From an uncultured Lentisphaeria bacterium (GTDB lineage: Bacteria > Verrucomicrobiota > Lentisphaeria > Victivallales > Victivallaceae), in NCBI GenBank assembly GCA_949282965.1, contig CASDQW010000051.1, positions 1 through 38,164 on the forward strand: DNA of 38,164 bases, given 5' to 3'. Position 1 is the stretch's first letter. The number at the start of each line of letters is the position of its first letter. The position numbers were made by a program, and so were the translations under genes. Below, piece by piece: positions 1,664 through 21,013 of this stretch. The notes beneath the pieces are model-generated. The model had not been told where the DNA came from. It did not search any database and saw nothing but the letters and a program-made list of their open reading frames with translations.

Positions 1664-3982
1664 GTGAAATCCCCGGTCAAATGGACCTTGACAATGCTGG
1701 CGGTATGGAGCGCCTGCACCCTCTCAGCTGCGAAAATCACCGACATCCGCTTCGAACAGCAGGGCGCCGCCCCCCTGTCCGAAGAGCAGATTTACTACAA
1801 CATCCGTCTCCGTCCCGGCAGTGAATATCAAAGCGACCTGGTCGACGAAGACATCAAGCGCCTTTACGCCACCGGCAATTTTTCCGATATCGTCTCCCAG
1901 ACCGCCCCACAACCAGACGGCAATGTAAAGCTGACTTTCCGTTTGCGTTTGAAACCGCAGGTCCGGAAAATTACCCTCGACGGCAATGCCAAATTTCCCG
2001 CAAGCGACCTGGAACCGCTGATCACACTCGCCGCCGACGCGCCGCTTCATGATGCGAAACTGCGTGAGAGCCTCACCGCGATCCGGGACTTTTATAAGGA
2101 AAAAGGCTACAACGAGGCCACCGTTACCCCGGTTATCGAACCGGCCGGCCCCGACCAGGTCAATGTCGTTTTCCGCATTCATGAAAACCTCCGCTTGAAA
2201 GTCGACCACGTCAAGTTCGAAGGCGCCACCGCCTATTCGCAATCCGATCTGAAGGGCGCCATCGCCAACCGTTATTCCTTCTGGAATGCCCTTCCATGGG
2301 TAGGAAGCTACTTCAACACCGGTCTGCTCGACCGCTCTGAACTGGAAACTGATGCGGCCCGGGTCCGCAGCCTCTACCTCGACAAAGGGTATCTGGATTT
2401 CAAAGTCGACAAAATTGACGTCACCCCCACTCCGGACGATCCGGAATACGTGGACTTGACCTTTCATGTCACCGAGGGCGAACCTTATCAGGTGGCGAAC
2501 ATTTCCATCGCCGGAAACACCGTCGTTCCCACGCCGGAGCTGGAGTCCCTGATCCGCCTGAAAGTGGGAGAAACGTTCAACGGTTCTCTGGAAAACGAGG
2601 CGGCCAAGGCGATTTCCGATTATTATGAATCTCTGGGATATGTCGATGTCAACGTCCGGCCGGTACGCCTCGCCGACTTCCGCAACCACACCGTAGACAT
2701 CCGCTTCGAAATCACCGAGGGCCGCCGGTACACCATCCGGGACGTTGTCATCTCCGGCAACACCTACACCAAAGACAAGGTCATCCGTCGGGAACTTGCC
2801 ATCCAGCCCGGCGACCCGGTGGACCGCAACCGCATCGAAGTGAGCAAATCCCGGCTGATGGGCATGGGGTATTTCCACAAGGTGGAAGCCACCACGACCA
2901 ATGCCGACGCCGTCAACGAAAAGGATGTCAACATCCGCGTGGAGGAAAAGGAAAATCGCTTCCAGTTCAAAGTCGGCGCCGGATTCTCCGACGTCAACAG
3001 CCTGGTCGGCATGGCGGAAATTTCCAGCAACAACTTCGATCTCTTCAGTCCCGGCAACTGGTTCTACGGCGGCGGGCAGCGGCTCCGGCTGCAGGCACTG
3101 GTCGGGATTGAACGTATGGGGTTCAACTTCGACTTCACGGAACCGTGGCTGTTCGATCTGCCCATGCGTTTTGATTTTTCTCTCTACGGCAATCAGATGG
3201 ATTTCGAACACTGGGATGAACGCCGTTACGGCGGGCGAGTATCCCTGAGTCGCAAGATCTTTGACGATTTCACCACCATCACGGGGGCGTATAAGTTCGA
3301 ACAGGTCAACATCCTTGACATGTCCCACCATCTCGGCCCAGAACTGCGGGAGGAACGCGGCCGCCAGTGGGTCAGCCAGACCTCGTTGATGCTGGACCGC
3401 GACACGCGGGACAGCCTGGTCTTCCCGACCTCCGGGTACAACCTGAACCTGCTGGCGGCGATATCGCCGAAAATTATGGGGTCAAGCAACAACTTCTATC
3501 GGGTGGAAGCCAAGGGTAGTTACTACTACTCCTTCTTTGAAAAGGCCATTGTCGTCATGGGCGGCTTCCGGATCGGCACAGTCTCCGCGTTCAACCGCAA
3601 CGACAGCGTCCCGCTGTTCGAGCGCTATTTCCTCGGCGGCGGCGACTCTCTCCGCGGCTTCCCCTTCCGCGAAGTTTCTCCGCTCAACCATGACGGCGAC
3701 GCCATGGGCGGTCAGACGATGTTCCTGGGCACGTTTGAAATCAGCCATCCGATCTGGAGCTTCATTCGCGGTGCCGCCTTTGTGGACGTCGGCAACACCT
3801 GGGCGAACGCCTGCAGTTTCGGTCCCGGCGGGGTCAACGTCGGTGCCGGTTACGGACTGCGCATCCAGCTGCCGATGATCAATGCGCCGCTCAAGCTGGA
3901 CCTGGCCTATCCGGTGGTCAACAATCAGGACGATGTGTCCAGCAAACTGCGTTTCCACTTCAACATGGGGTTCACCTGGTAA
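1664..3982 (+). CDS. bamA: Outer membrane protein assembly factor BamA
   Basis: Core subunit of the BAM complex, which folds beta-barrel proteins into the outer membrane. The 772-residue product has a signal peptide (about 1-22, cut near SAA/K), five POTRA repeats (about 23-435; repeats start near KITDIRFEQQ, VRKITLDGNA, KVDHVKFEGA, QVANISIAGN and TIRDVVISGN) and a 16-strand barrel with the L6 motif SLRGF. It ends in an aromatic residue (GFTW), the usual barrel sorting signal. Length and domain order are typical for full BamA rather than TamA. The start is GTG at 1664, preceded at 7 nt by GGAG (1653-1656). mazG follows immediately (2-nt gap), so the two are probably co-transcribed. In many diderms bamA sits with ompH/lpxD; here it does not. 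Confidence 0.96.
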   Translation: MKSPVKWTLTMLAVWSACTLSAAKITDIRFEQQGAAPLSEEQIYYNIRLRPGSEYQSDLVDEDIKRLYATGNFSDIVSQTAPQPDGNVKLTFRLRLKPQVRKITLDGNAKFPASDLEPLITLAADAPLHDAKLRESLTAIRDFYKEKGYNEATVTPVIEPAGPDQVNVVFRIHENLRLKVDHVKFEGATAYSQSDLKGAIANRYSFWNALPWVGSYFNTGLLDRSELETDAARVRSLYLDKGYLDFKVDKIDVTPTPDDPEYVDLTFHVTEGEPYQVANISIAGNTVVPTPELESLIRLKVGETFNGSLENEAAKAISDYYESLGYVDVNVRPVRLADFRNHTVDIRFEITEGRRYTIRDVVISGNTYTKDKVIRRELAIQPGDPVDRNRIEVSKSRLMGMGYFHKVEATTTNADAVNEKDVNIRVEEKENRFQFKVGAGFSDVNSLVGMAEISSNNFDLFSPGNWFYGGGQRLRLQALVGIERMGFNFDFTEPWLFDLPMRFDFSLYGNQMDFEHWDERRYGGRVSLSRKIFDDFTTITGAYKFEQVNILDMSHHLGPELREERGRQWVSQTSLMLDRDTRDSLVFPTSGYNLNLLAAISPKIMGSSNNFYRVEAKGSYYYSFFEKAIVVMGGFRIGTVSAFNRNDSVPLFERYFLGGGDSLRGFPFREVSPLNHDGDAMGGQTMFLGTFEISHPIWSFIRGAAFVDVGNTWANACSFGPGGVNVGAGYGLRIQLPMINAPLKLDLAYPVVNNQDDVSSKLRFHFNMGFTW

Positions 3983-12356: not shown

Positions 12357-12408
12357 GACGAAATAATTCTGTATCATCATGAAAACCACGACAGGGGAGT
12401 GGATCAGA

Positions 12409-14115
12409 ATGAAAAACATCCAACCGATCGTACTTGGCGCAATGGCAGCGGCGCTGGGCTTTCTGTGCGGCTGCCACACCACGGAACCGGCGGCGACGGC
12501 ACCGAAACCGCCAACACTGCGTGAACAGGTGATCTCCCACCTGAATCCCGGCGGCAGTTATTATCAATATACCGACCTGACCGCCACCCTGTCCGCGTTT
12601 TACGCCTACGGCGACCGCGTAAGCCAGGCCATCCTCCAGTCCAATCTGCCCCCCGCCGACCGGGAAAAAATCGCCGGCATTCTGAACACCGGCATGCTTG
12701 CCATTTCCCTGGCCGGAATGGACGGGGAACTGGCCGGGGGCGCCAGTTCCGTCCCGTTGAATCTGCCGCCGGACAGCCCGGTCCGTTACCGCAACGTCTC
12801 CTATGTCGGTTACGGCCCCGGAACGGAAAAGGGGTTGCTCTGGCAGCTCTTCGGCACGAAAAACCGGGATCTGCGCGACCACCTGAAGGCAATTCCGGCC
12901 AATGCGCTCTTCGTCGCGGATTTTGAATTTTACCCGGAACGCTTCCTTGAGTTTTTCGAACGCATCGCCGCAAATTTCGCCAAGGAAGGCCGTCCCGCGC
13001 TGACCATTCCCGACAGTGTGAGAGAGCTTTTCCCAGCGCTGGGAGGCGAGTGGTTCGTGCTGGTTCTCCCCGTCCCCCCCGAAAAACAGAACGGAGGACT
13101 GCCGATCTCGTTCCTGGTGGGCATGCCGGACCATGACAACAAAATTTTCCGGAAACTCACCCATTTTGAAGAAACACCAGAGGCCGGAACCACGCACAAA
13201 CTGTCCCAGCTGGGCGCCGCGCTGCCGTTTACGCCGGTTTTGATGGCAGGCGAAAACAGCCTTTGTCTCTACTCCGATGAGCAGGCCATTCCAGCGTTCA
13301 AAGAAGGGATCCCCGTGCTCGCCGATACGAAGAAACTCGCCGCGCTGACCACCGGACTGAAAACGGAAGGGACGGGATTTTTCTACTCCAGCGCAGGTCT
13401 GGGAAACTTGTTGACCACCCTCACGCCCGGAATTTTCAACGGGATCGCCATCCCCGTGGAACTGCCTGACCAGCTGTACATCATGCGTAAAGAACCCAAC
13501 GGAATCCTGGTGGAGGGAAATTCCGGCTGGGATCTCAATACCACCCAGTTCAGCCTGAGCATGGCACCGATTCTCTTGCCGCTTTCCGCAGGGACGTTCA
13601 ACCGCATCGAAAACCTGCGGGGAAACGCTCAGAAAGCAGCGGATTTTCAGAAATGCGGCAAACACATGGAACAATTCCGACAGGCCTTTGCCGCTTACGC
13701 CGACGCCCATGACGGTCGCTACCCCGCAGGGGATGACCTTGAGGGGCTCCGGGAATTGATCGCCGCCGGCAACATTTCGCCCGCCGCCGCCGTCTGTCCC
13801 GCCGCCCGAGGCGATCAGCCGGCAAAGGATGCCAAGAGCTTCGATTACGATAATTGTTCCTATGTCTATTTCGGCGGCGCCACGCGCCAGTCCTCGCCGT
13901 ATCTGCCGCTGCTGGTGGACTGGCCGTTCAATCATCGGAACCGGTTCCACGTGCTCTTCGTCAATGGCGAAATCCGGTCCTATCCGCTGGAGAACCTCAC
14001 CAGCAGCCGACGGTTGGTCAGTTTCCTGCACAGTGAGTTCAGATATACCGAAGCGGAACTCCGGCGGCTCCTCAAAACCGCGGACAAACTGGATGCCAGG
14101 TTCATTATCCAATAA
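12409..14115 (+). CDS. Predicted lipoprotein with pseudopilin-like C-terminal region
   Basis: A 568-residue exported protein of unknown function. The N-terminus (MKNIQPIVLGAMAAALGF) followed by LCGC is a type II signal peptide with lipid attachment at Cys22. The large middle part shows no motif I know. Residues about 415-530 (YADAHDGRYPAGDDLEGLRE, a Cys-Pro, then FHVLFVNGEIRSYP) resemble the globular end of pseudopilin/type II secretion-like proteins common in Lentisphaerota and Planctomycetota, but without the hydrophobic prepilin N-terminus. ATG at 12409 has AGGGGAG 9 nt upstream and places the signal peptide at the very start; the upstream ATG at 12379 lacks a binding site. It lies immediately upstream of the HlyD/M50 module and may serve it, though a separate promoter sits between them. 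Confidence 0.78.
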   Translation: MKNIQPIVLGAMAAALGFLCGCHTTEPAATAPKPPTLREQVISHLNPGGSYYQYTDLTATLSAFYAYGDRVSQAILQSNLPPADREKIAGILNTGMLAISLAGMDGELAGGASSVPLNLPPDSPVRYRNVSYVGYGPGTEKGLLWQLFGTKNRDLRDHLKAIPANALFVADFEFYPERFLEFFERIAANFAKEGRPALTIPDSVRELFPALGGEWFVLVLPVPPEKQNGGLPISFLVGMPDHDNKIFRKLTHFEETPEAGTTHKLSQLGAALPFTPVLMAGENSLCLYSDEQAIPAFKEGIPVLADTKKLAALTTGLKTEGTGFFYSSAGLGNLLTTLTPGIFNGIAIPVELPDQLYIMRKEPNGILVEGNSGWDLNTTQFSLSMAPILLPLSAGTFNRIENLRGNAQKAADFQKCGKHMEQFRQAFAAYADAHDGRYPAGDDLEGLRELIAAGNISPAAAVCPAARGDQPAKDAKSFDYDNCSYVYFGGATRQSSPYLPLLVDWPFNHRNRFHVLFVNGEIRSYPLENLTSSRRLVSFLHSEFRYTEAELRRLLKTADKLDARFIIQ

Positions 14116-14162: not shown

Positions 14163-14969
14163 ATGAATTTTCGGAATGTTTTCATTGCCGCCGTCTGTTT
14201 CGGTGGTGTGTTGACGGCCCCGGCCGCGAGCCTGGAGGAAGACGGCCCCCGCACGGTGCTTTTCCCACTGCGTCATGCGGTGCTGTCCAGTCAGGTGGAA
14301 AGCAGCATCAACCGACACCAGCATCAGGAAGGCGAGGCCTTTCAGGAAGGCGACGTACTGATCCAGTTCGACGACTCCGCCATCCGCCAGCACCTGCTGC
14401 GCAGTCAGGCCTCTACCCGGGAAGCCGAGGCCGGCTTGGAATATGCCCGGAAAAATCGCGAAACCGTCGCCGACCTCTTCAAAAAAGGCATCCAGGGCCA
14501 GCAGGAACTGGATCGGGCCAATCTGGAAGTCGAGGTTGCCGAAGCCCGGCTGCTCGGTATGCAGGCAGCGCAGAAACTCAACGAAAAGGAACTGGCCGAC
14601 TGTACCATCCGTGCGCCGTTTTCCGGTCGCGTGGTCCGGAAGCTGGCCCAGGAGCATGAATTCGTCCGGGTCGGCCAGCAGGTCCTGCAGATTCTGGACG
14701 ACAAAACGCTTCTGGCCGCGCTGCATGTGGACTCCGCGCTGCGCAACCAGGTGAAACTCGGGGAAACCCGTCGCATCCGGATCGATGAAACCGGCACCGT
14801 CCATACCGGCAAAATCACCCAGATCTCCGCGGAAGTGGATTCCGGCAGCCGGACGTTTGAAATCAAAATCAGCATCGACAACACCGACGGCCGGCTGGCC
14901 GCCGGTATGTCCGGCGTCCTGCTCTCCGAAACGCCGAGTCCCGCCGCGAAACCGGAGACGCAGCCATGA
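14163..14969 (+). CDS. HlyD-family periplasmic adaptor protein (membrane fusion type)
   Basis: A 268-residue periplasmic adaptor. A signal peptide (MNFRNVFIAAVCFGGVLTAP, cut near APAA/S) is followed by a lipoyl/biotinyl half-motif (QEGEAFQEGDVLIQFDDSAI), a coiled-coil hairpin (about 65-135), the second lipoyl half (CTIRAPFSGRVVRKLAQEHE) and a beta-barrel domain ending in LAAGMSGVLL. It resembles the adaptor of RND or ABC efflux pumps but is short and no pump gene is adjacent. No Shine-Dalgarno sequence is visible before ATG 14163. The stop overlaps the next start (ATGA at 14966), so the module is translationally coupled. Confidence 0.87.
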   Translation: MNFRNVFIAAVCFGGVLTAPAASLEEDGPRTVLFPLRHAVLSSQVESSINRHQHQEGEAFQEGDVLIQFDDSAIRQHLLRSQASTREAEAGLEYARKNRETVADLFKKGIQGQQELDRANLEVEVAEARLLGMQAAQKLNEKELADCTIRAPFSGRVVRKLAQEHEFVRVGQQVLQILDDKTLLAALHVDSALRNQVKLGETRRIRIDETGTVHTGKITQISAEVDSGSRTFEIKISIDNTDGRLAAGMSGVLLSETPSPAAKPETQP

Positions 14970-16378
14970 GCCAGGGCGTGCCGTCTTCCGAACTTCAGGT
15001 TCTGCGCGGCAAACTCAACGCGCTCTCCGCCGTCATCCGCCTCGGACACGAAGCGTACGACAAAGAGGAGTTGGCCGACTGGGCCGGGCACGTCGTCAAC
15101 AACAGCGTGCTGCTGCTTCCCTATTATCGTTCCGCCTTGATTGATCTGCGTGGCGGCGCCCTGCGGCTGACGGCGGTTACCGGCCAGGCCGCGGTCAACG
15201 CCAATACCGAATATGCCCGCGATGTTCTCGCCCTGACTCGAAAATTCCGCCGGCTGGAAAAGGTTACGGAACTGACCGAGGAAATTCTGGACGAAAACGG
15301 TGCTTCGGCAGAAGCCGAAGAAGCACTCGCCTCTCTGCGAAAGACCTCCGCACTGCTCTATCTGGTACCATTTCGCCAGGCGGGAAGAAAAACCGCGGAC
15401 GAGGCCGACTTTCTCTGGCTGGTCGAATTTGACAAACCGGAATCCCGGGCGGTGGCGCCGGCCCTGCTGGCTCTGCTCAAGGAACACTATTCCGAATCGC
15501 TGTTTTATGTGACCAGCCACAAAAGGAAACCCCTGTACCAGCGCCTGCTGGAGCGCCGCGGCTGGCTGCGCCCGTCCCGTCTGATTCTGGTGCTGCTGCT
15601 GCTTTTCGCGCTGTCCACGGTTCTGGTACGGGTACGACAGACGGTTTCGGCGGAATTTGAACTGATCCCGGCGCGGGAATCCATCGCCTATTCCCCCTTT
15701 GAAGGCGTAATCAGCCGCTGTCTTTTCAAAAGCGGCGATCCGGTCCGGAAAGGGGATCCGGTGATTCTGTTTGACACCGACGAACGTCAGTTCAACCTGG
15801 AAACCGCCCGCAACGAATACAACCGGATCAATGCTCAGCTGGACCTGACCCGCCGGCAATCCTTCCTGGATCCGGCCAAGCGCGCTCAGATCAAACTGCT
15901 GGAGCTGCAGAAGGAAAAAGCCGCCATCGACATCGAACGCAATGAATGGTACCTTGCCCGCAGCCGGGTCACAGCCGAAGTCGACGGCATTCTCGACGCC
16001 GGCGACGCCGATAAACTTGCCGGCAAGGCAGTCCGCCCCGGAGAACGGCTCTTTGAAGTGCTGGGCACCGGCGATATGGTGGCGGAAATCGCGCTGGACG
16101 AGCGCAACGCCTCGGTGCTGAACGAGCAGACGGCGGTCACCCTGTACCTTCATGCACGTCCGGAGGTGGCGATTCCCGCCCAAATCCTGAGTGTGACCGG
16201 ACGACCGCTGCTGACGCCGCGCCGGACTTATTGCTATTTGATCCGCGCTGATTTTTCCGCTCCGGCGCACCTGGAGCTGATCTGCGGCATGCGCGGGATT
16301 GCCCGGATCGCGGGGCCGCGGGTGACGCTGGGGTATTACCTTTTCCGGCATCTGGTGCTCTGGTACCGGCAACTCTGA
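14966..16378 (+). CDS. GAF-like / transmembrane / HlyD-type adaptor protein
   Basis: A 470-residue inner-membrane protein. Residues 1-200 are cytoplasmic and resemble a GAF-type sensor domain (regular alpha/beta pattern, no cysteines or histidines in a clear cofactor site); this call is tentative. A single membrane segment (about 205-221, ILVLLLLFALSTVL) leads to a periplasmic HlyD-like part: lipoyl half AYSPFEGVISRCLFKSGDPV (241-260), a coiled coil (about 270-320), the second half and a beta-barrel. The protein would pass a cytoplasmic signal to, or anchor, a periplasmic adaptor. It overlaps the preceding adaptor gene by 4 nt and precedes the M50 fusion by 13 nt. Confidence 0.78.
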   Translation: MSQGVPSSELQVLRGKLNALSAVIRLGHEAYDKEELADWAGHVVNNSVLLLPYYRSALIDLRGGALRLTAVTGQAAVNANTEYARDVLALTRKFRRLEKVTELTEEILDENGASAEAEEALASLRKTSALLYLVPFRQAGRKTADEADFLWLVEFDKPESRAVAPALLALLKEHYSESLFYVTSHKRKPLYQRLLERRGWLRPSRLILVLLLLFALSTVLVRVRQTVSAEFELIPARESIAYSPFEGVISRCLFKSGDPVRKGDPVILFDTDERQFNLETARNEYNRINAQLDLTRRQSFLDPAKRAQIKLLELQKEKAAIDIERNEWYLARSRVTAEVDGILDAGDADKLAGKAVRPGERLFEVLGTGDMVAEIALDERNASVLNEQTAVTLYLHARPEVAIPAQILSVTGRPLLTPRRTYCYLIRADFSAPAHLELICGMRGIARIAGPRVTLGYYLFRHLVLWYRQL

Positions 16379-16391
16379 CGCGGCGCCGCCC

Positions 16392-18581
16392 ATGATCATC
16401 CGAGAAGACAATGTCGCCGTACCGAGCCTGCCGGAAAGACTGCCGACACCGGGAGCAACGCCGACACCGGGGGCCGGACCGGGCCCCAAACCCCAGCCAC
16501 AGCAGCGATTAGGGGAACTGCGCCCGGATCTGGAACTTTTCCGGGGCGACCGGAATGAATTCGGAGAAGCGACCTGGGTCATTTTCGATCCGGTCGCCGA
16601 CACCTATTTCCGCATTACCGACGAGGATTACCGGATCATCCGTCTCTGGACCGGCAATCCGGAACTGCATGCCTTCGTCACCAAGCTGGCCAATGCCGGA
16701 CTCCGGGTACCGCCGGAACGGCTGCTCCTGCTGGCCGCTTTCATGCAACAGAACGGCCTGCTCCGTCCCAGCTACCGGACATCCGAGGAACGGGGCATCA
16801 AAATGCGCGATTTCCGGAAAAAAATGTTCTGGCACATGCTGCTGAACTATTATTTGTTTTTCCGGATTCCGCTCTGGTCGCCGGATCGATTCATCTGCCG
16901 CACCCGGGAAGTGGTGGAAGCCATCTTCAACCGCTGGGTGCTGGCGGCACTGCGGGTGCTGGCCGGAATCGGCTACCTGTGTTTGATCGTCAACTGGTAC
17001 CGCTTCACCGACGCGTTTCTGAATTCGATCTCCATTCAGGGCATGATCCGCTACTCCATTGCGGTCATGGCGATCAAAGTCATCCATGAATTTTCCCATG
17101 CCTATACCGCCCGGCATTTCGGCTGCCGGGTCCGCCGGATGGGGGTGGCGTTCATCGTCTTCTTCCCCCGGCTTTACACGGACCTGACCGACTCCTGGCG
17201 GGTGCGGGACCGGTACCGCCGCTTTCTCATCGACGGCGCGGGTATTTTCAGCGAACTCATCATCGGCGGCATTGCGGCGCTGGTGTGGGCCAACACCGGT
17301 CCAGGACTGACGCATTCGGTCGCCTATTACATCTTCGCGGTCAGCATCATCAACACGGTGCTGATCAACGGCAATCCTTTCATCCGTTACGACGGATACT
17401 ACATGCTCATGGACTTGGTCAACATCGACAATCTCCAGAAACGCGGTACCGTGGTAGTCCGCAATCTATGGCGCCATTACCTTTTCGGACTGCCGGCGGA
17501 ACCGGATCCGTCGCGCGGCTGGAAGCGGGCGTTTCTGATCGGATACGGGATCGGAATGTTTTTCTACCGGATTTTCCTGTATCTTTCGATCATTCTGCTG
17601 GTTTATTTCAATTTTGCCAAAGCGGTGGGGATCGTTTTGCTGATTCTGGAAGTTTATCTGATGATTTTAAAACCGATTATGGGGGAAGGAAAGACATTGT
17701 TTATGAACAGAAAACGAATGAACCGCCGCAAGGCGCTGTTGTCACTTTCCGGAGCGGCGTTGATTGTGGCGCTCCTGGCCGTACCGCTGCCCTGGCGAAT
17801 CGCCGCGCCCTGTGAAGTCGCCGCCCCCGGGGCCGTCATGGTCTACGCGCCGGAAGACGGTGCCGCGGTAAAACTGCCGCCCCGGGACGGGACCCGGATT
17901 GCCGCCGGCGATCTGCTGCTGCAACAGGAAAATCCGCAGCTGGAATGGCGCATTCGGGAAGCCGACGTCGGCATTGCACTGGATTCCGAACAGCTCGACC
18001 AGGCGGAACGCTCCGACCAGCTGCTCGGACAGATTGCCGTCATCCGCGAATCCCTGGAGAGCAGCCGTGCCACCCGCGAAGAAATGCTGCGGCGCCGGGA
18101 ACTGCTTACCACCACCGCACCGATCGACGGCATTTTCACCCGCCGGGATCGCCATCTGACGCCGGGCAAGCAGTTGAACCGGGGCGACCTGATCGGAGAA
18201 ATTCATCCCTTCCAATCTTTGCAGGTTACCGCCTACGTATCGGAGGAAGACGTCAAGTTTCTGCGCAACGGAGACGCCGTCAGCGTGGAGCTGAACGATG
18301 CGCTGCCCGTCCATTCCGGCAAAATCACGGCGATCCGGGAAGTCACCACACTGCTGCCGCCTTCGCCGCTGCTGGACGCGTTCGGCGGTCCGATTCTGAC
18401 CACGCCGGTAGAAGAAAACGCCTATCTGCCGCAAACGGCCTGTTACCAGGTCGACGTATTGCTGACGGACCCCCTTCCGACCGGTCGTTCGGGAACGGCG
18501 CGCATCCGACGTTACGCCTCCATCGGCGGCAATCTCCTGCGCAGCACACTCCGGGTACTCCGGCGGGAACTGAGTTTCTGA
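16392..18581 (+). CDS. PqqD-like / site-2-protease-like (M50) / HlyD fusion protein
   Basis: A 729-residue polytopic membrane protein. In order: a proline/glycine-rich leader (about 15-40); a PqqD-like domain (about 42-125; VIFDPVADTYFRI, then EDYRIIRLWTG); an M50 site-2-protease-like core with the zinc motif HEFSH (232-236) and the second motif NPFIRYDG (328-335), embedded in several membrane helices (about 183-430); one more helix (about 448-465); and a periplasmic HlyD part with two lipoyl halves (VYAPEDGAAVKLPPRDG; TTTAPIDGIFTRRD) around a coiled coil. Both catalytic motifs look intact. No Shine-Dalgarno sequence is obvious before the ATG. As I recall, similar M50-HlyD proteins occur next to HlyD and GAF-HlyD genes in other diderms, but I know of no established function. 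A sporulation or sigma-factor role seems unlikely given the fusion. Confidence 0.84.
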   Translation: MIIREDNVAVPSLPERLPTPGATPTPGAGPGPKPQPQQRLGELRPDLELFRGDRNEFGEATWVIFDPVADTYFRITDEDYRIIRLWTGNPELHAFVTKLANAGLRVPPERLLLLAAFMQQNGLLRPSYRTSEERGIKMRDFRKKMFWHMLLNYYLFFRIPLWSPDRFICRTREVVEAIFNRWVLAALRVLAGIGYLCLIVNWYRFTDAFLNSISIQGMIRYSIAVMAIKVIHEFSHAYTARHFGCRVRRMGVAFIVFFPRLYTDLTDSWRVRDRYRRFLIDGAGIFSELIIGGIAALVWANTGPGLTHSVAYYIFAVSIINTVLINGNPFIRYDGYYMLMDLVNIDNLQKRGTVVVRNLWRHYLFGLPAEPDPSRGWKRAFLIGYGIGMFFYRIFLYLSIILLVYFNFAKAVGIVLLILEVYLMILKPIMGEGKTLFMNRKRMNRRKALLSLSGAALIVALLAVPLPWRIAAPCEVAAPGAVMVYAPEDGAAVKLPPRDGTRIAAGDLLLQQENPQLEWRIREADVGIALDSEQLDQAERSDQLLGQIAVIRESLESSRATREEMLRRRELLTTTAPIDGIFTRRDRHLTPGKQLNRGDLIGEIHPFQSLQVTAYVSEEDVKFLRNGDAVSVELNDALPVHSGKITAIREVTTLLPPSPLLDAFGGPILTTPVEENAYLPQTACYQVDVLLTDPLPTGRSGTARIRRYASIGGNLLRSTLRVLRRELSF

Positions 18582-18603: not shown

Positions 18604-18984
18604 TCAGACCTTCTCCAGCACCACGTTGGCGACGGCATAATGCGCCTCGTGTGTCAAGGAAAGATGCACCGTACCTCCTCCCAGTTTTCGGAAGGTCTCC
18701 GCCGCCGCGCCCCGCAATTTCACATAAGGACGACCGTTGTCGCCGTTGCGACATTCGACGTCCAGCAGAGCACAGCCGGCGCCGATCCCGCAGCCCAGTG
18801 CCTTGGACACCGCCTCCTTGACCGCCCAGCGGCCAGCATAGTAAATCGAAGGATCATTGCGTTCCGCCGCCTCCTGCCGCTCGGCCAGCGTAAAGGTCTT
18901 CTCCACAAAAGCACCGTCAAAACGCTCCAGCAGTTTCCGAATCCGTTCGATTTCCACCAGGTCAACGCCGATGCCGACAATCAT
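18604..18984 (-). CDS. acpS: Holo-[acyl-carrier-protein] synthase
   Basis: Transfers 4'-phosphopantetheine from CoA to apo-ACP, enabling fatty acid synthesis. The 126-residue protein has GVDLVEIERI (6-15, with the metal-binding Asp8) and RWAVKEAVSKALG (52-64, with the conserved Glu and Lys), and ends at the usual length. ATG overlaps the stop of the MerR-like gene by 4 nt, so it is the last gene of the ribF operon. CoA, its substrate, is made through coaD, transcribed divergently from the same control region. Confidence 0.96.
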   Translation of the reverse strand: MIVGIGVDLVEIERIRKLLERFDGAFVEKTFTLAERQEAAERNDPSIYYAGRWAVKEAVSKALGCGIGAGCALLDVECRNGDNGRPYVKLRGAAAETFRKLGGGTVHLSLTHEAHYAVANVVLEKV

Positions 18985-20048
18985 TTTTGCTCCTTTCCCG
19001 CGGCCGTCTCGACCGGTTCGGCTGTCTTTGCCGGAATCGTCGCATTCAACGCCGGCTGCATCCGGACAGCTGCCGTCTCCGCGCGGCTTTCCGCAGCCTT
19101 GCGCGCGGCGATTTCCTTTTCCAGTTTTTCCAGCAACTCGCGCTGCCGGGCGGCAAAATCCTCCTTCAGCCGCACCAGTTCCGCCTCATGCCGTCTGCCG
19201 GTTTCCTGTTCCCAGCGCTGTCGCACGGCCTCCGCCTCCTGGCGCTGCTGCTCCAGCTCCTTCTGCAGTGATTGGAGGTTCCGCTGATAATCCTCGCGGC
19301 TGCGATCCAGAGAAATCGTCATTTTCTCCAATTTCGCCTGTTGCTCCTGACGCATCCGGGCCGCTTCCGTTTCCGCGCGACGCGACGCTGCGGCATTCCG
19401 GCTCTGCTCCTCCTGCAAAGCGGAAATCAACTGTTGCGTCGCCTCCACTTTGCCGCTCAACGTACCGGACTGTTCCTGCAGCGACGTCCATTGACGAATA
19501 TCCGCCGCCCGCTCTTCCCGCAACCGCTCCAGCAGCCGCCCCGTGAACAGCAGCAGCGGCAGCCCCACCGCCAGCAACAGGAGCAGAATCACCAGACACA
19601 ACATCCACCAGAATCTTCGAACGGCGGTTTGACGCCGCTTCTCCTGATCCTCCAGCACGGAAAACAGACGGGACAGATCCTGCTGTGCCAGCGCCACCGC
19701 ATCCGCGCCGTTCTCCCGCATCGCCAATGCCGTCGCCGCTTCCGGCACCGCCGCCCCCTCTTCCGGTGCAACACTGCCCGGCGCGACTTCCGGCGCGACT
19801 TCCGGACGCAATCCATGTCGGCGGGCCAGTTCCGCCTCGATATCGAAGGCCGACTTTCCGGCGTCCCGCAGGGCGGCGACTTCCCGCAACACGGCGAGCG
19901 CACCAGCGGAATAAGCCTTGCGTTTGCCGCGGTATTCGAATTCCAGATAGGCGCCGTAGCGGTTCAACCAGTCGTTGACCGTGGTGCGCGGCACCCCCAG
20001 CTCCTGCGCCAGATCCGAGGTTAAATACGTTTTTTTCCCGTCCGTCAT
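18981..20048 (-). CDS. MerR-like HTH protein with transmembrane segment and long coiled coil
   Basis: A 355-residue protein of unknown role. Residues about 6-75 form a MerR-type winged helix (YLTSDLAQELGVPRTTVNDW) with a second part like the MerR wing (KRKAYSAGALAVLREVAAL). A Pro/Ala/Glu-rich linker (82-105, containing the repeat PEVAPEVAP) leads to a strong membrane segment (147-168) and then about 160 residues of heptad-rich coiled coil (170-330, Glu/Gln/Arg-rich). The usual MerR effector domain is absent. The order DNA-binding, membrane, coiled coil suggests tethering DNA to the membrane, loosely like RacA-type anchor proteins, rather than ordinary repression. It is embedded between ribF and acpS by 4-nt overlaps at both ends. 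Confidence 0.72.
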   Translation of the reverse strand: MTDGKKTYLTSDLAQELGVPRTTVNDWLNRYGAYLEFEYRGKRKAYSAGALAVLREVAALRDAGKSAFDIEAELARRHGLRPEVAPEVAPGSVAPEEGAAVPEAATALAMRENGADAVALAQQDLSRLFSVLEDQEKRRQTAVRRFWWMLCLVILLLLLAVGLPLLLFTGRLLERLREERAADIRQWTSLQEQSGTLSGKVEATQQLISALQEEQSRNAAASRRAETEAARMRQEQQAKLEKMTISLDRSREDYQRNLQSLQKELEQQRQEAEAVRQRWEQETGRRHEAELVRLKEDFAARQRELLEKLEKEIAARKAAESRAETAAVRMQPALNATIPAKTAEPVETAAGKEQK

Positions 20049-21013
20049 GGTTCCTCCCGCCTCCGCAAAAATTCTTCCCGAATCATCACAATGTCCTGTT
20101 CTATCTGCCGCCGCAGTTCCTCCACCCCGGAAAATGCCCGTTCCGGACGCAGATGGCGGATCAGCTCCACCCCGATTTCCATGCCGTAAAGATTACCGGA
20201 AAAATCCAGGACATGCACCTCCAGCCGCCGTTTTCCTTCCGGCCAGCCGAACGTCGGCGCCACCCCCAGATTGACCGCCGCCGGATGCGCAATGCCCGCC
20301 ACCAGCGCCCGCGCCGCATACACTCCGTCCGGCGGCAGAATTCCGGTATCCACCGCCAGATTGGCGGTCGGCCGCTTCAACTCCCGTCCGGCGGCATGAT
20401 AGCCGGGTTCGACAATTCCCGTCAGCCGATAGGGGCGCCCCAGCAGCATTTCCGCGCGAGCCAGCAGCCCCGAGGCCACCGCACGACGAATGGCGGTACT
20501 GCTGACCACCTCGCCGTCCACCCGCAATTCCGGCACCGCGCGGAACGCCAGCGCATGTTCCCGGCAATAATCAGCCAGCAAAGCGGCATCCCCCGCCGCC
20601 TTCGCTCCGAAACGCCAGTCGGAACCGACACAAATCCCCGTTACTATGCAGGGAATCCGCAACAGCCGATGCAGAAACTCCTCCGGCGCCAGTCCGGCGA
20701 ATTCCCGTGAGAACCGGATCACCACCGCTTCCGCCGCGCCGTAATGCCGCAGCAGCCGCAGCCGCTCCTTCGGCGGCATCAGCAATCGCGGCGGATCCTG
20801 TGGACAGAGCACCTCCCGGGGATGCGGCACGAAGGTCATCGCCACCGGTACCGCCTCTGTTTCCCGCGCCATTTCCGCCAGCTCGGCAAGGAGCAGCTGA
20901 TGCCCCCGGTGCACTCCGTCAAACACGCCGATGCCGACCGCCACCCGCCGGCCGGCCAGACCGGTGTCCTCAAACAATCCCGTCATTTTCGAAACATCCC
21001 GTTTCCCTCCCAT
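20045..21013 (-). CDS. ribF: Bifunctional riboflavin kinase/FAD synthetase
   Basis: Converts riboflavin to FMN and then FAD. The 322-residue protein has the N-terminal FAD synthetase with GVFDGVHRGH (29-38), VGSDWRFGAKAAGD (about 138-151) and SSTAIRRAV (about 178), and the C-terminal riboflavin kinase with RPTANLAVDTG (about 218) and DGVYAARA. The frame opens at 21013 (ATG, GGATAGGG just upstream); ATG at 20986 is an alternative start with GGGA 10 nt upstream. First gene of a three-gene operon with the MerR-like gene and acpS, driven by a promoter that overlaps the coaD promoter. Confidence 0.95.
   Translation of the reverse strand: MGGKRDVSKMTGLFEDTGLAGRRVAVGIGVFDGVHRGHQLLLAELAEMARETEAVPVAMTFVPHPREVLCPQDPPRLLMPPKERLRLLRHYGAAEAVVIRFSREFAGLAPEEFLHRLLRIPCIVTGICVGSDWRFGAKAAGDAALLADYCREHALAFRAVPELRVDGEVVSSTAIRRAVASGLLARAEMLLGRPYRLTGIVEPGYHAAGRELKRPTANLAVDTGILPPDGVYAARALVAGIAHPAAVNLGVAPTFGWPEGKRRLEVHVLDFSGNLYGMEIGVELIRHLRPERAFSGVEELRRQIEQDIVMIREEFLRRREEP

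Follow-up and report, generated by a model that had tools for sequence, protein, structure and literature searches.

Three genes of a Lentisphaeria bacterium probably encode a membrane machine that reads, and may cut, the leader of giant surface proteins and threads them out

The three-gene locus

The window (the whole stretch of DNA that was analysed, 38,164 nucleotides of contig C51) comes from a Lentisphaeria assembly of 2.81 Mb that is 87% complete. From 14163 to 18581 it carries three ORFs on the same strand, referred to here as the trio, that form an operon: genes 1 and 2 overlap by 4 bp (ATGA), and a gap of 13 bp separates genes 2 and 3. The features of the locus are the following.

12379 to 14115, + strand: lipoprotein-like ORF, 578 aa, 47 bp upstream of the trio
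14163 to 14969, + strand: HlyD/RND-type adaptor, periplasmic, 268 aa (Pfam HlyD_3 5.6e-19, HlyD_D23 2e-15; TIGR01730 5e-41)
14966 to 16378, + strand: GAF-like domain, one TM and HlyD adaptor, 470 aa (HlyD Pfam matches; AF2)
16392 to 18581, + strand: PqqD-M50-HlyD fusion, 729 aa (Pfam Peptidase_M50, HlyD_3, weak HlyD_D23)
16506 to 16757, + strand: PqqD-like (RRE-type) domain of the fusion, residues 39-122 (best PDB matches of the profile, TfuB1 RRE and PqqD)
17085 to 17099, + strand: HEFSH zinc motif, residues 232-236 (H232, E233 and H236 invariant)
17373 to 17396, + strand: NPFIRYDG, second S2P active-site motif, residues 328-335 (Asp invariant in 75 long homologues)
17781 to 18578, + strand: C-terminal HlyD adaptor of the fusion, beyond the last TM (AF2; best Foldseek matches MexA, MacA, AcrA)

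ORFs and Pfam thus agree with the preliminary description of the locus, which had placed three consecutive adaptor genes (HlyD, GAF-HlyD and PqqD-M50-HlyD) at these positions. HlyD_3 and HlyD_D23 were found in all trio proteins, the D23 match of the 729-aa fusion falling slightly below the Pfam cut-off. The N-terminus of the 268-aa protein (about residues 1-22) is hydrophobic and by hydropathy resembles a Sec signal peptide. In the AF2 model of the 470-aa protein (pLDDT 84.9) a globular domain (about residues 8-184) is followed by the TM helix (203-220) and the adaptor (222-454), with MacA/MexA/AcrA as the best Foldseek matches. The window's own GAF-HlyD gives no Pfam GAF match; the GAF-like assignment is borne out by three planctomycete members that do match Pfam GAF (2.6e-12) and are alignable to its globular domain.

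The N-terminus of the fusion had been described as PqqD-like, and its homologues bear this out. Of the 38 N-termini of homologues, 18 match PF05402 (best 3.3e-6); the window's own N-terminus gives no match and was assigned by alignment to them. The top PDB entries of the profile are the RiPP leader-binding TfuB1 (6jx3, E 0.022) and PqqD (3g2b, E 0.024), and the strand-helix order in the AF2 model (pLDDT 79.4) fits the PqqD fold. Positive-inside charge over the modelled helix positions would make the PqqD domain cytoplasmic and the HlyD part periplasmic. Peptidase_M50 scores 29.4 bits against a cut-off of 27.2. HExxH is retained in all 75 long homologues and NxNP....DG in 72; in the remaining three the Asp is kept but DA stands for DG. 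Both HExxH and NPxxxxDG lie in TM helices of the fusion, as in site-2 proteases (M50). The core, taken from the outset to be intact, has kept its catalytic motifs across the family, and the window fusion may carry out intramembrane proteolysis.

The ORF just upstream of the trio, a possible member of the operon, has no Pfam or NCBIfam match. Homologues occur in L004 and L006/L104 and are absent from the other relatives compared; as a conserved cargo it was rejected because close relatives alone have it. Housekeeping genes in the same window encode a BamA-like Omp85 protein (1664-3982), holo-ACP synthase (18604-18984) and RibF (20045-21013).

Among the window genes scanned with Pfam and NCBIfam there are no ABC, RND or TolC genes, and neither a cargo gene nor TolC lies in cis. 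Among these genes the HlyD adaptors are accordingly accompanied neither by the ABC transporter and TolC of type I secretion nor by the pump and channel of RND tripartite efflux. The earlier remark that no pump, ABC ATPase or outer-membrane channel is adjacent is right for this copy; as to the channel it fails for many relatives and for a second copy in the same genome, which have TolC. No secondary SecA_DEAD was found near the trio, and the only SecA matches of the genome look canonical, so that a secondary SecA is provisionally absent from an assembly that is 87% complete. Two non-identical SecA genes are each truncated by the end of their contig (G000:C53, L023, and G000:C100, L024); they represent either a second paralogue or a strain or contaminant contig.

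Relatives, the LExR leader and the second copy

Similar gene sets in other diderms had been mentioned, with no established function known for them. Kamneva 2015 (PMC4452313) already reported GAF-HlyD, HlyD and M50-HlyD in other phyla, with a secondary SecA and sometimes an OEP; the paper suggests that the GAF protein may be regulatory and names neither a substrate nor a PqqD domain for the locus. The window encodes the same three families together. In many relatives the trio has TolC, SecA2 and/or a giant protein with the leader as neighbours. The layout TolC, giant, HlyD, GAF-HlyD, M50 recurs throughout Victivallales, where neither SecA2 nor another motor was found near the trio, whereas SecA2 comes after M50 in five Lentisphaeria loci of other lineages (in a sixth, L092, by a custom SecA2 model) and in most of the Verrucomicrobiota loci fetched outside Lentisphaeria, where the giant neighbour starts LExRxLLSA. 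LEPR-leader proteins lie inside the gene cluster in the gammaproteobacterial set: L256 reads HlyD, a 3177-aa LEPR protein, GAF-HlyD, M50, SecA2, while L255 and L247 have the SecA2-less layout with TolC and, just upstream on the same contig, a gene with the leader LEPRLLFDGAA. The loci examined showed no ABC transporter, and the neighbourhoods are not, as they might have been, built in every case around a known ABC or RND transporter. An orphan efflux adaptor set was rejected as a reading of the trio on account of the missing pump, the conserved M50 fusion and the leader-bearing neighbours. The window thus contains a SecA2-less instance of a locus that is known (Kamneva 2015) but has no function assigned to it; what is new here is a substrate, for which the LExR leader class is a strong candidate.

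The giant ORFs beside relatives of the trio, of up to about 20,000 codons, begin with LExR-x-L(L/F)-x-(A/G), within a consensus of about [LIF][EFY]x-LE-x-R-x-L-[LF]-[SDEA]-[AG]. The proteins that carry it are mostly giant, repetitive and adhesin-like, and the motif takes in NCBIfam LEPR-XLL as well as the leader with which many DUF4347 proteins start. A pattern search of the loci returned 41 matching ORF N-termini, one of them a chance match in a SecA2 ORF, and none among 4149 internal 110-aa windows or among reversed N-termini. The invariant L, E and R of the listed leaders are built into the search pattern; the residues preceding LExR, and S/D/E and A/G behind the two hydrophobic positions, recur though they lie outside it. 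A first, narrower pattern had missed L192 and the short precursors described below, whose match to the motif is no independent prediction because the wider pattern was chosen after seeing them. The leaders have no obvious hydrophobic signal-peptide core, their top 15-residue hydropathy being below 2.0 against 2.1-2.3 for the signal peptides of the trio. The idea that DUF4347 itself is recognised was rejected: it is absent from L085 and from several gammaproteobacterial substrates that carry the leader, and G006 and G014 have DUF4347 proteins without the leader and no core was found there.

The leader occurs in dialects that go with the M50 clades: MYxLE[DE]RILFD[GA]AA with that of the window, LE[DE]RVLF[ED]AAAA with that of the second copy and LExRxLLS[AG] with the SecA2 clade. 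Leader and M50 distances are correlated (Mantel r 0.83, p 1e-4; within Victivallales-type loci r 0.74, p 1e-4; neither corrected for shared ancestry). In the multi-copy genomes G009 and G012 each dialect stays with its own M50; since paralogous loci keep their own dialect, species relatedness alone is insufficient as an explanation.

The second, diverged copy of the trio in the window genome (L020) is ordered TolC, DUF4347 protein, HlyD, GAF-HlyD, M50, and its 1267-aa DUF4347 protein bears the leader MRRHELEFFRLEDRVLFEAAA. That L020 is a contaminant was rejected, as its GC and tetranucleotide profile match and a sister genome carries both copies. The protein paired with L020 is the one leader-bearing cargo that a search of the 87%-complete window genome returned. 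The sister genome G027 holds an orphan TolC and a 4654-aa ORF (L102) with the window-type dialect, each nearest to window-type loci, and the synteny matching this orphan locus breaks at base 1 of contig C66 in the window genome; for this reason the cargo gene of the window trio may sit in an assembly gap. The giant protein handled by the window copy would then be encoded at another place in the genome.

Co-occurrence of leader and core across genomes

The PqqD-M50 core was found in 18 of 19 LEPR-XLL genomes among 289 genomes of Verrucomicrobiota (about 4 expected; Fisher 2e-12), in 16 of 18 among 274 genomes drawn around one gammaproteobacterium, the gammaproteobacterial set (about 3 expected; 2e-12), and in 22 of 27 DUF4347 genomes among 119 Lentisphaeria (about 8 expected; 5e-11), all three tests being uncorrected for ancestry. 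By hand count, DUF4347 gene and core share a contig in 17 of those 22 Lentisphaeria genomes. The core was scored as present at E 1e-10 with a Lentisphaeria-weighted profile, so that absences elsewhere may be missed detections. The exceptions are of several kinds: in the gammaproteobacterial set, LEPR leaders occur in G405 and G542 with no detected core; in G055 the leader gene reaches the contig end, with TolC adjacent; G006 and G014, as stated above, have DUF4347 proteins that lack the leader; and G197, also counted, has its LEPR-XLL match at about residue 573 of a 635-aa ORF, hence not N-terminal. Conversely, 28 of the 44 core-bearing genomes of the gammaproteobacterial set have no LEPR-XLL match, so either there is further cargo or some dialects escape the motif model.

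The leader belongs to a motif class known since 2004. As cited in PMC8567305, the planctomycete cell-surface signal RRLxxExLExRxLLA (Studholme 2004, PF07595) was thought to be a novel export signal of Rhodopirellula baltica, and LEALEQRQLLAGG in L192 fits it. PF07595 itself gave a match below threshold. One fetched leader passed the NF012209 (LEPR-XLL) cut-off in a direct scan, as did many leaders when the genomes were searched. LEPR-XLL has also been reported in a giant protein of Vibrio (PMC10868602). Among open-licence PMC papers we found none that names a machinery for the LExR motif or links the leader to the trio locus, and the literature on YydH together with HlyD, or on SecA together with giant proteins, yielded nothing useful.

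Leader-guided export and its alternatives

Taking into account the domains of the trio, its linkage to leader-bearing genes and the match of dialects, we consider it likely that the trio supplies the components in the inner membrane and periplasm of a leader-guided exporter for LExR-leader, mostly giant, proteins. In the model, the PqqD domain of the M50 protein would capture the LExR leader in the cytoplasm and the M50 core would cleave it in the membrane, perhaps close to the A/G that is conserved. Of the HlyD adaptors two are membrane-anchored and one is free; together with a TolC-family protein all three would form the conduit across the envelope, and SecA2 would be the likely motor in the lineages that bear it. 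The outward direction of the cargo, like its binding, cleavage and passage, is an inference. That the locus recognises, cleaves and exports had been suggested before; the PqqD-type fold, the intact S2P active site, the three HlyD domains and the shared leader of the relatives fit that suggestion, and the substrate proposed with it, a peptide or lipoprotein, gives way for the most part to giant LExR-leader proteins. The likeness to type I secretion and to C39 double-glycine-leader exporters lies in the HlyD and TolC conduit. C39 exporters, too, handle cargo whose N-terminal leader ends at small residues; in contrast to them, the trio has no ABC transporter adjacent, and M50 and PqqD replace the C39-ABC protein.

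Giant proteins might instead cross the inner membrane by ordinary Sec, the trio only maturing or anchoring them in the periplasm. A canonical SecA is present in the genome, HlyD-type proteins could serve as assembly factors and the ATPase beside the trio in one clade is a SecA relative, a natural link to Sec. However, the leaders lack an obvious hydrophobic core of the signal-peptide kind, the recognition domain is cytoplasmic by predicted topology and TolC co-occurs with the trio, and we regard this route as unlikely.

Leader binding by PqqD domains is a feature of RiPP pathways, and the locus has further ties to these. The named families nearest to the fusion are both below cut-off: the daptide metalloprotease NF041824 (4e-46, 157.8 bits where 300 are required) and YydH/LiaK NF058609 (4e-9, 36.5 of 225). 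A search of neighbourhoods for short precursors or TolC-like partners, as first proposed, turned up TolC in many and short precursors in one verrucomicrobial genus. In four of its genomes, of 2.2-2.5 Mb, the leader heads tandem short proteins of 110-176 aa (FEMETLESRELFAAAAVPHH and similar), which a motif search brought up and which were then aligned. At the two loci listed, L193 and L203, these precursor-like proteins have the trio, a standalone PqqD protein and a radical-SAM enzyme as neighbours, and the radical-SAM enzyme of L193 is nearest to YydG epimerases, below the YydG family cut-off. With the YydFGHIJ epipeptide and daptide systems the locus thus has in common an M50 protease of the kind used in RiPP maturation and, in one clade, a YydG-like radical-SAM enzyme, whereas the protease of this locus forms one protein with PqqD and HlyD, the hosts are diderm and ABC transporters are missing from the loci examined. 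The leader shared by short RiPP-like precursors and giants may point to a common origin. A module for RiPP maturation and export, to which the giants became associated later or by accident, would account for these observations; it is very unlikely, as linkage to giant proteins is far commoner here, in both sampled groups, and the dialect tracks the M50 clade.

M50 proteases often act in signalling. The least probable reading, a sensory or regulatory complex in which GAF senses, M50 cleaves a regulator and the HlyD domains are scaffolds, could call on this, on the GAF-like domain and on the regulatory role proposed by Kamneva 2015, but the presence of three adaptors, of TolC and SecA as partners and of cargo that bears the leader favours transport.

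For leader-guided export as a distinct secretion route, we incline, by a narrower measure than for the exporter itself, to the view that a PqqD-S2P-HlyD fusion in place of the T1SS ABC transporter reads the LExR leader of proteins of up to about 20,000 aa in Verrucomicrobiota (with Lentisphaeria) and Gammaproteobacteria, probably also in Planctomycetota, and that short RiPP-like precursors of one lineage share this leader. The signal of 2004 and the substrate-less, T1SS-like locus of 2015 would thereby be joined in a testable secretion pathway; if true, it would offer an explanation for the exit of some of the largest predicted bacterial proteins from the cell and tie the export of giant adhesins to RiPP biology.

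Some loci show peculiarities of their own. At L096 (G059:C2:59660-60873) M50-HlyD is split into two ORFs, by a frameshift or an assembly error. A small conserved protein (84-122 aa, IYADGIGQ) adjoins TolC at L005, L009 and L013 and is also called in other Victivallales loci. The leader-bearing open frames of G242, G130, G128 and G222 run to about 17,000-20,500 codons.
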